Shown here one piece after another: positions 10,842 through 59,108 of a stretch of 64,000 nt of DNA. The notes beneath the pieces were generated by a model. It searched no databases. It saw nothing but the letters and a program-made list of their open reading frames with translations, and was not told where the DNA came from. Numbering within the stretch: the stretch's first letter is position 1; every line of letters begins with the position of its first letter. Made by a program: the position numbers and the translations under genes. Origin of the DNA: Lachnospiraceae bacterium (GTDB taxonomy: Bacteria > Bacillota > Clostridia > Lachnospirales > Lachnospiraceae); the NCBI GenBank assembly GCA_030523275.1, contig JAUNIX010000001.1:1-64000 (forward strand), read 5' to 3'.

Positions 10842-10847
10842 TTTAAG

Positions 10848-10882
10848 ACTGTTCCTACAAATGTTGTGGGAACGGTTTTTTT
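10848..10882 (+). terminator. Intrinsic terminator of pyrG
   Basis: A 13-bp stem (ACTGTTCCTACAA with TTGTGGGAACGGT, loop ATG) and seven T. Confidence 0.95.
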
Positions 10883-10883
10883 A

Positions 10884-10954
10884 TTTCATAGAAAATTACG
10901 TTGTAATTTCTATGAAGAGGATGCAATCAGATGCATGCGGACTTATCTGCTTTG
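10884..10954 (+). repeat. Structured interspersed repeat, copy A (internally deleted)
   Basis: Begins with the family's palindrome (10884-10916, core ATTACGTTGTAAT), continues with GAGGATGCAATCAGATGCAT, then jumps straight to the family's right end (GCGGACTTATCTGC at 10937-10950). The roughly 110 bases between are missing relative to copies B and C. It starts one base after the T run of the pyrG terminator. Confidence 0.85.
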
Positions 10955-10980
10955 ATGAAAAATATATGGAGGAACAGAAA

Positions 10981-12700: not shown

Positions 12701-12729
12701 AGCGCCTCCTTTTTAGGAGACGCTTTTTT
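12701..12729 (+). terminator. Intrinsic terminator of truA
   Basis: AGCGCCTCCT / AGGAGACGCT stem (one mismatch) with six T. Confidence 0.9.
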
Positions 12730-12911
12730 GTTTCATAGGAAATTACGTTGTAATTTCCATGAAACAAAAAAGCTCCGCGAGGATGCGACCAGATGCATAA
12801 GGTAATAAGACTGCTTACAGCAGTCTGCATCTGGCGCACAAAGCGGAGCAAGTCCCTCAGGGACTGAGGGATTTAGGGAGTTCGAGGCGGACTTGTCCGC
12901 TTTTGTTCTTT
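12730..12911 (+). repeat. Structured interspersed repeat, copy B (full length)
   Basis: About 182 bases. The left palindrome (12730-12765) is followed by a long nested stem: GCTCCGC (12772-12778) with GCGGAGC (12843-12849), CCAGATGC with GCATCTGG, and an apical AGACTGCT/AGCAGTCT hairpin. Next come hairpins AGTCCCT/AGGGACT and GCGGAC/GTCCGC. The flanks AACAAAA and TTTTGTT can close the whole element. It begins directly behind the truA terminator. The open frame on the minus strand here is a by-product of the repeat. Confidence 0.9.
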
Positions 12912-12989: not shown

Positions 12990-13060
12990 TTGACATTTGT
13001 TCTAGTCTGAGTATAATAGATGATTACAGTGATATTTAACTAAGTTAACAATTGAATATC
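12990..13060 (+). promoter_or_regulatory. Promoter and probable MarR operator
   Basis: TTGACA (12990-12995), 16 bases, TATAAT (13012-13017). Downstream an inverted repeat GATATT (13031-13036) / AATATC (13055-13060) encloses a smaller TTAAC-TAA-GTTAA palindrome, which suits autorepression by the MarR protein that follows. Confidence 0.7.
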
Positions 13061-33507: not shown

Positions 33508-33532
33508 GCAAAGAATGCAACAACTTCCAGGT

Positions 33533-33865
33533 GTGCGCCCAGCGAAGGGCAATTAACCTAACAGGTGCAAAGCCTGTCTGTTTAAGGTCTAACCAACCAG
33601 CAGTAGCGACTCTTGCGTGGTGGTCAGTAATGGCTATTGCACAGCGTAGACAGCAAGCAAGTAGGGTTGCAATGCGATTGAGTCACGAAATGTTGAAATT
33701 GAAAGAGCCAATCATGCTTGACATTGTGGTTAATTGTCAACTGAGGAGAGCCTGTTATTTCTTGAAAACAAGTCCGCCATTTCAACTAGAAGATGGATAA
33801 CAGGCAGTCGGATAGCTTAATAGTACTGATGAAACTGGGTAATGCCAGTGGAGGGAAGTGTAGTG
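33533..33865 (+). mobile_element. 5' fragment of a group II intron
   Basis: Opens with GTGCGCCCAGCGAAGGGCAA, the conserved 5' end (GUGCG) of bacterial group II introns, followed by domain I landmarks such as CAGGTGCAAAGCCTG, GATTGAGTCACGAAATGTTG and GGTAATGCCAGTGGAGGGAA. The sequence breaks off near 33865 into an IS3 fragment. No reverse transcriptase gene and no domain V or VI follow, so it cannot splice. The open frame 33531-33800 inside it is not a gene. Confidence 0.75.
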
Positions 33866-56671: not shown

Positions 56672-56856
56672 TTTCAAAGGAAATTACGTTGTAATTTCCT
56701 TTGAAATAAAGAACGCTCCGCGAGGATGCGACCAGATGCATAAGGTAATATGACTGCTTATAGCAGTCTGCATCTGGCGCACAAAGCGGAGCAAGTCCTT
56801 CAGGGAATGAGGAATTTAGGAAGTTCAAGGCGGACTTGCCCGCTTTTGTTCTTTAT
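56672..56856 (+). repeat. Structured interspersed repeat, copy C (full length)
   Basis: About 185 bases, matching copy B nearly throughout. The left palindrome 56672-56706 is perfect (TTTCAAAGGAAATTAC with its complement), and its outer arm differs from copies A and B at bases that change on both sides. The closing stem is ATAAAGAAC with GTTCTTTAT. Lies directly behind the pdxT terminator. The remaining 56857-56947 holds only the ktrB ribosome site. Confidence 0.9.
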
Positions 56857-58971: not shown

Positions 58972-59088
58972 ATTTCCTTTGAAACAAAAAACACTCCGTG
59001 AGGATGTGACCAGATGCATAAAACGGAACAAGTCCCTAAGGGACTGAAGAATTTAGGGAGTTCGAGGCGGAATTGTCCGCTTTTGTTC
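58972..59088 (+). repeat. Structured interspersed repeat, copy D (partial)
   Basis: About 117 bases: only the right half of the terminal palindrome (ATTTCCTTTGAAAC), then a version of the inner stem with TCCGT/ACGGA in place of TCCGC/GCGGA, the AGTCCCT/AGGGACT hairpin and the right end. The apical AGACTGCT hairpin is deleted. No terminator lies before it. Confidence 0.82.
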
Positions 59089-59108
59089 CGATTGGAAGAA
59101 GGGATAAA

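Follow-up and report, generated by a model that had tools for sequence, protein, structure and literature searches.

Four copies of a repeat of about 180 nucleotides, A to D, lie at positions 10884, 12730, 56672 and 58972 of the window, the whole 64,000-nucleotide stretch of a Lachnospiraceae genome under study. They raise the question of what kind of sequence can be strongly folded, devoid of genes and placed behind pyrG (copy A), truA (copy B), pdxS-pdxT (copy C) and trkA (copy D). The preliminary description had located the copies at these positions, where all four were recovered, and had suggested either an RNA or DNA structure under selection or a non-autonomous mobile element.

Architecture of the repeat

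The architecture is described here on copy B, and all coordinates refer to the forward (+) strand. The Rho-independent terminator of the host gene truA (12702-12729) consists of a stem, GCGCCTCC..GGAGACGC, and a T-tract, as seen in the sequence and in a terminator scan, and this T-tract doubles as the 5' foot of the head hairpin P1 of copy B (12725-12770). In the predicted fold of P1, the T-tract and GTTTCATAGGAAATTAC are followed by the loop GTT and by GTAATTTCCATGAAAC with an A-tract. The mini-hairpin (12771-12784) reads AGC-UCC-GCG followed by AGGAT, for a consensus CGC-UCC-GCG-A-GGAU; in copy B itself the outermost pair is A-G. The core helix (12784-12838), included in a match of the core covariance model R1 at 12770-12840, is composed of P2 (TGCG at 12784-12787 and CGCA at 12835-12838), a bulged A (12788), P3 (CCAGATGCA at 12789-12797 and TGCATCTGG at 12826-12834), the asymmetric bulge TAAGGTAATAA (12798-12808) and the P4 hairpin GACTGCT-TAC-AGCAGTC (12809-12825). 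An accessory hairpin, AGTCCCTCAGGGACT, with a linker (12851-12886) was assigned from the fold and from an alignment by eye with loci L031, L078 and L054; it precedes the 3' end in this genome's own subfamily and in near relatives. The 3' hairpin (12887-12909; GCGGACTTGTCCGC and TTTTGTTCT), identified by a right-end pattern and the terminator scan, forms a terminator-like right end.

Homologues from many genera share a common plan of P1, mini-hairpin, GGAU, P2/P3, P4 and 3' hairpin, in elements of 150-205 nt (about 180 nt for the repeat studied here) with a multi-helix core. Across genera the 5' foot of P1 is T-rich and its 3' foot A-rich, the mini-hairpin has the loop UCC and the consensus CGC-UCC-GCG followed by (A)GGAU, and P2 is either GCGC/GCGC or UGCG/CGCA, followed by one bulged A. 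P3 measures 8-9 bp, with the P4 hairpin sitting flush on it, and its sequence varies by genome (CGGAUUCGG/CCGAAUCCG, GUGAUUCUG/CAGAAUCAC, CCAGAUGCA/UGCAUCUGG, CGCUUUUG/CAAAAGCG and CCCGUGCGG/CCGCACGGG). The asymmetric bulge has 10-11 nt, for example UAAGGUAAUAU or ACAGGAAUUU, and the 3' hairpin often precedes UUUGUUCU. A long closing stem, GCTCCGC/GCGGAGC, was considered as a conserved helix and rejected, since it is mismatched (as GCGAAGC or the like) in roughly half of the 19 near-full copies of the same genome and lacks a partner in most other genera. The argument that the preliminary description had drawn from TCCGC/GCGGA in some copies and TCCGT/ACGGA in copy D falls with this stem.

The other three copies of the window, also on the + strand, differ in completeness. 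Copy C (56672-56854; core at 56713-56783) is a full copy behind the pdxT terminator. Copy A, annotated together with the pyrG terminator (10845-10957), is a deletion derivative with a head at 10884-10916, core fragments and a degenerate right end. Copy D (58972-59089), with the mini-hairpin CAC-UCC-GUG, begins a few bases past the trkA stop codon with no terminator ahead of it; its right end is kept (59067-59088), and the 5' head arm and the P3/P4 region are absent. Copies A and D have the internal losses reported for them, but the accompanying statement that both ends are kept does not hold for D, in which the 5' half of the head hairpin is missing.

Two other features of the window were recorded. 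A perfect sigma-70 promoter consensus (TTGACA-16-TATAAT, 12/12) stands at 12990-13017, just downstream of copy B and before a gene for a MarR-family regulator. A group II intron fragment (RF02005, 58 bits) occupies 33520-33800, adjoining an apparent IS3-type transposase remnant; no reverse transcriptase gene is present in the window, and the matches to the Rfam group II models lie outside the element.

Stability and covariation of the fold

The predicted fold of copy B reaches -97.7 kcal/mol (z = -12.6), a stability equalled by none of 200 shuffled sequences, and that of copy C has a z of -9.2. Covariation over many copies was observed directly and is strong. In 11 hand-chosen cores, aligned by MAFFT without reference to structure, 29 two-sided compensated cells were counted versus 7.9 in shuffles; in 83 distinct model-aligned cores the count was 285 versus 77.4, with a covariation score of 0.521 versus 0.142 for shuffled alignments and at most 0.10 for slid structures. 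The larger alignment was fitted to the model, and its numbers therefore lean towards structure. Among the mini-hairpins, compared by hand and without a count, the stems CGC/GCG, CCC/GGG, CAC/GUG, CAU/AUG, UGC/GCA and GCC/GGC occur, the stem changing while the UCC loop and GGAU usually stay. In 187 copies over many genera, with 77 distinct 12-nt arms, the two arms of P1 were complementary (10 or more of 12 pairs) in 154; 11-12 pairs are formed in 133 of the 187, versus 35 of 540 trials in which the arms were borrowed from other copies.

The decisive covariation resides in the P2/P3 core, in the mini-hairpin and in P1 compared across genera. Some of the specific pairs cited in the preliminary description are not the conserved ones, while selection on the structure itself, which it had proposed, is supported.

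Copies, distribution and insertion sites

The genome (2.91 Mb in 65 contigs, 95% complete) contains about 50-60 copies of the 180-nt repeat, counting full, deleted and truncated ones, so that the expectation of further copies beyond A to D was amply met. BLAST with copy B gave 66 matches, including second matches to the palindromic head; a head pattern searched on both strands gave 62, corresponding to about 50 distinct places, and a right-end pattern 28 places. Since these matches are numerous and both patterns gave none when written backwards, the copies are far beyond chance. Model R1 found 64 places at E <= 1 and 41 at E <= 0.01, and the genome has at least two further subfamilies of other sequence and the same fold. 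The second, comprising ten of the best R1 matches and missed by the DNA search, has the head ATATCAGATGTGAGATGACTCCC...CATCTGATAT, the P3 GGGATTCGG/CCGAATCCC and the end TTGAA; in the third (L099) a TTTCATAGG head is joined to a different core. Heads are nearly always intact, and 3' truncations and internal deletions are plentiful. In another genome, G033, heads of the TTTCATAGGAAATT type are found on quite different bodies, GCCGCTTCC..GGAAACGGC (L033, L041, L048 and L053), suggesting a modular exchange of heads and bodies. Copies also lie at, or a few hundred bases from, the ends of contigs C4, C19, C38, C47, C62 and C28 of the genome studied here (L255, L292, L264, L291, L382 and L381); with several copies so placed, the assembly was probably interrupted by the repeat, and the real number of copies would be somewhat higher.

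The covariance-model search that had been proposed as a check retrieved relatives across the Lachnospiraceae and in other families of Clostridia (genomes G424, G558 and G413). The 17 genomes examined have from 1 to 84 R1 matches each: five congeners have 41, 8, 10, 9 and 1, and genomes of other genera 13-84. In the congener G002 the exact pattern gave a single match, versus 10 for R1. A 20-nt core pattern is present in 71 of 299 genomes drawn from Lachnospiraceae, and the core 20-mer in its exact form is carried by, among others, Coprococcus comes, Blautia glucerasea, Lachnospira multipara, L. pectinoschiza, Eubacterium oxidoreducens, Agathobacter ruminis, [Clostridium] aminophilum, Clostridium fessum, Butyrivibrio and Anaerobium acetethylicum. 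Both the multi-copy spread and the differences in copy number among congeners are direct observations, as is the lineage specificity of the truA copy: at the truA locus of four congeners (protein 79-82% identical) the element is missing, and a terminator or plain intergenic DNA is found instead. The exact core 20-mer did not occur in 2.9 million viral contigs (IMG/VR), and a DNA similarity search of plasmid and phage collections returned no match to the repeat. Absence from viral contigs is unusual for an actively hopping element. Dispersed at non-orthologous sites and without coding capacity, the copies meet the broad definition of a non-autonomous mobile element, in support of the second proposal of the preliminary description.

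A type-1 copy is laid out as a terminator stem, six or seven T, an A or G, and then TTTCATAGG. A Rho-independent terminator stands directly 5' of 31 of the 33 type-1 copies of this genome, versus 4-5% of random positions, and before 45 of 59 in other genomes, where random positions score 16% and T5 positions 24%; of 49 type-2 copies, 13 are preceded by a terminator, near background. The preference was observed together with one of orientation, type-1 copies lying in sense, 3' of the terminator stem-loop. At the P1 foot the A-tract of the element pairs with the T-tract of the terminator, and the two bases at this foot are A/T or G/C in 25 of the 33 copies of this genome (Fisher p = 0.005). Since in tandem arrays the next head comes after the 3' hairpin of the previous copy, the own end of the element can act as the 'terminator'. 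No consistent target-site duplication was seen in ten type-2 copies inspected by eye.

Proposed mobilisation, rival readings and known systems

The repeat is probably a non-autonomous mobile element of Clostridia that targets terminators and is mobilised in trans by an unidentified enzyme; its movement was not observed. Such an element would spread within chromosomes as a short structured interspersed repeat, with type-1 heads inserting one way round some 6-7 nt downstream of an intrinsic terminator stem and type-2 heads at AT-rich sites. Its hairpins would be the recognition signals for the enzyme supplied in trans, its bases at the P1 foot would pair with the T-tract of the target, and the site behind a terminator would offer a safe harbour in which genes remain undisturbed. 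Three points are inferred: transposition in trans, the recognition of the hairpins in single-stranded form (in the manner of HUH/Y1 enzymes or, through RNA, by a reverse transcriptase) and the advantage of the safe harbour.

The search for the enzyme did not yield a universal partner. An autonomous relative was sought through the right end and the type-2 left end, with only short copies or relics as the outcome, and among the genes next to about 130 loci, inspected by eye, no transposase-like family was prominent, the neighbours being unrelated. Y1_Tnp (PF01797) is absent from four of 16 high-copy genomes (G015, G199, G216 and G321, each with at least 13 copies), and RVT_1 from five of the 16 (G015, G183, G199, G307 and G321). 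Genomes without one or the other carry 13-53 copies; some of them are incomplete and others nearly complete, and G199, rated 100% complete, is without both. The genome studied here has one Y1 gene. The congener G002 has 16 Y1_Tnp and 17 RVT_1 matches, many of identical score, indicating recent expansions, yet just 10 copies of the repeat. A hairpin resembling an IS605 end is present in type-2 heads. At L384 (G002:C4:262300-265300) and L305, IS605-type tnpA and tnpB genes are accompanied by a left-end hairpin with the 17-mer AGAAGACTCCCACCTCT, common to type-2 heads. An activity of some other or unknown kind is a serious possibility for the enzyme, a Y1/HUH transposase can be entertained tentatively, and a reverse transcriptase is doubtful.

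By analogy, the closest counterparts would be the BOX, RUP and SPRITE repeats of Streptococcus pneumoniae (PMC3049150), the REP/RAYT system and, for the choice of target, group IIC introns. The pneumococcal repeats, too, are short, non-coding and intergenic, occur in many copies with a strong fold and are probably parasites mobilised in trans; SPRITE also resembles a terminator (PMC3049150). However, judged from their published description and without sequence comparison (PMC3049150), they differ from it in sequence, in fold and in host group; insertion right after host terminators, with pairing of T-tract and A-tract, is unreported for them, and fold conservation across many genera is not known for them. 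REPs and BIMEs, which come with RAYT (Y1) transposases, are like the repeat chromosomal, extragenic, palindromic and of high copy number, with hairpin ends, and the repeat was absent from the phages and plasmids searched; but REPs are of 20-40 nt with GTAG or CGTC tags (PMC3733652), whereas the repeat has 150-205 nt, a complex core and no such tag that was noticed, and the gaps in Y1_Tnp separate it further from the RAYT system. With the PATEs derived from IS200/IS605 it has in common subterminal hairpins, the lack of a visible duplication and an AT-rich target. The 17-mer links type-2 heads to the left end of the tnpA-tnpB element of G002, whereas type-1 heads and the right end are without match, and as a pair the ends match no IS605 found in these genomes; moreover, PATEs are not known to have a conserved RNA-like core. 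Classical MITEs (DDE) differ by their terminal inverted repeats, the repeat having its own hairpin at the left end and a different one at the right, and by the target-site duplication, which was not consistent in the copies inspected. The conservation of the core, far above the need of a MITE interior, hints at a role of its own.

Group IIC introns bind a DNA stem-loop, a spacer and the insertion site, the studied example being from Eubacterium rectale, of the Lachnospiraceae (PMC10190682). They resemble the repeat in being inserted in one orientation, immediately downstream of a terminator-like DNA stem-loop, but intron domains D5/D6, a ribozyme core and an encoded reverse transcriptase are all lacking in the repeat. 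The repeat fails the tested sequence, tag, enzyme or domain features of both REP/RAYT and group IIC introns. In keeping with the lack of a known family name, Rfam 15, searched at gathering and permissive thresholds, gave no family match at gathering score or credible E-value, only chance-level miRNA and leader matches far below threshold. No description of the element was found by literature searches or in papers on structured RNAs and introns, and none of the papers searched contains any of six diagnostic sequence strings. The main text of a large human-microbiome RNA survey discusses palindromic candidates and does not name the repeat; an unnamed candidate in its tables is possible (PMC8040213).

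As a particular case of the mobile element, the repeat might be a bacterial counterpart of a SINE, a gene-less structured RNA copied in trans by a resident reverse transcriptase or RNP, primed at the terminator T-tract paired with the A-tract and integrated behind the terminator by way of this pairing. This is considered unlikely, although the target choice like that of group IIC introns (PMC10190682), the tract pairing and the RNA-like core all agree with it. Heads that are nearly always intact with 3' ends cut at many points could come from synthesis starting at the head, as this reading expects, or from the purging of deletions that reach the host terminator, which would give the same polarity; RVT_1 is missing from five of the high-copy genomes, and expression data are absent.

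Quite unlikely, too, is a functional host RNA, which would regulate or process read-through transcripts (by 3' end protection, back-up or bidirectional termination or protein binding) and be kept by hosts behind many genes, whose mobility would be only historical and whose expression as RNA is untested. It would fit the RNA-like core, in which the unpaired bulge and the UCC/GGAU motifs are conserved, the consistent placement of copies in sense behind terminators, the terminator-like right end and the absence from the phages and plasmids searched, yet the truA copy is lineage-specific, copy numbers differ widely among congeners, truncated and internally deleted copies are numerous, the adjoining genes are unrelated and some subfamilies insert by other habits. 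An excess of G-T over A-C mismatches (37 versus 18 in all refitted stems) is absent for P2/P3 on the model alignment (13 versus 13) and points to a functional sense RNA at most weakly.

That the compensating changes are a mere by-product of mutation, template switching correcting imperfect palindromes without any selected structure, is very improbable: the compensations reported in the head palindromes of copies A, B and C, taken alone, could also arise in this way, and flips of loop orientation in head hairpins (GTT versus AAC, e.g. L015) and the perfect match between the arms of copy C speak for it, whereas P2/P3 stays paired across genera and its bulged A, its asymmetric bulge and the closing sequences are conserved, although correction of palindromes would have removed them, and mini-hairpin stems change with the UCC loop and GGAU usually retained.

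The repeat is apparently a non-coding element that is widespread in gut and rumen Lachnospiraceae and has not been described before. Dozens of genes, with pyrG, truA and pdxT as examples here, have gained a long hairpin downstream, and the repeat could change transcript 3' ends and read-through. Its fold, kept while the sequence is replaced, offers a clean handle for finding the mobilising enzyme, and an element that carries no gene and targets terminators would be a natural start for safe-site insertion.
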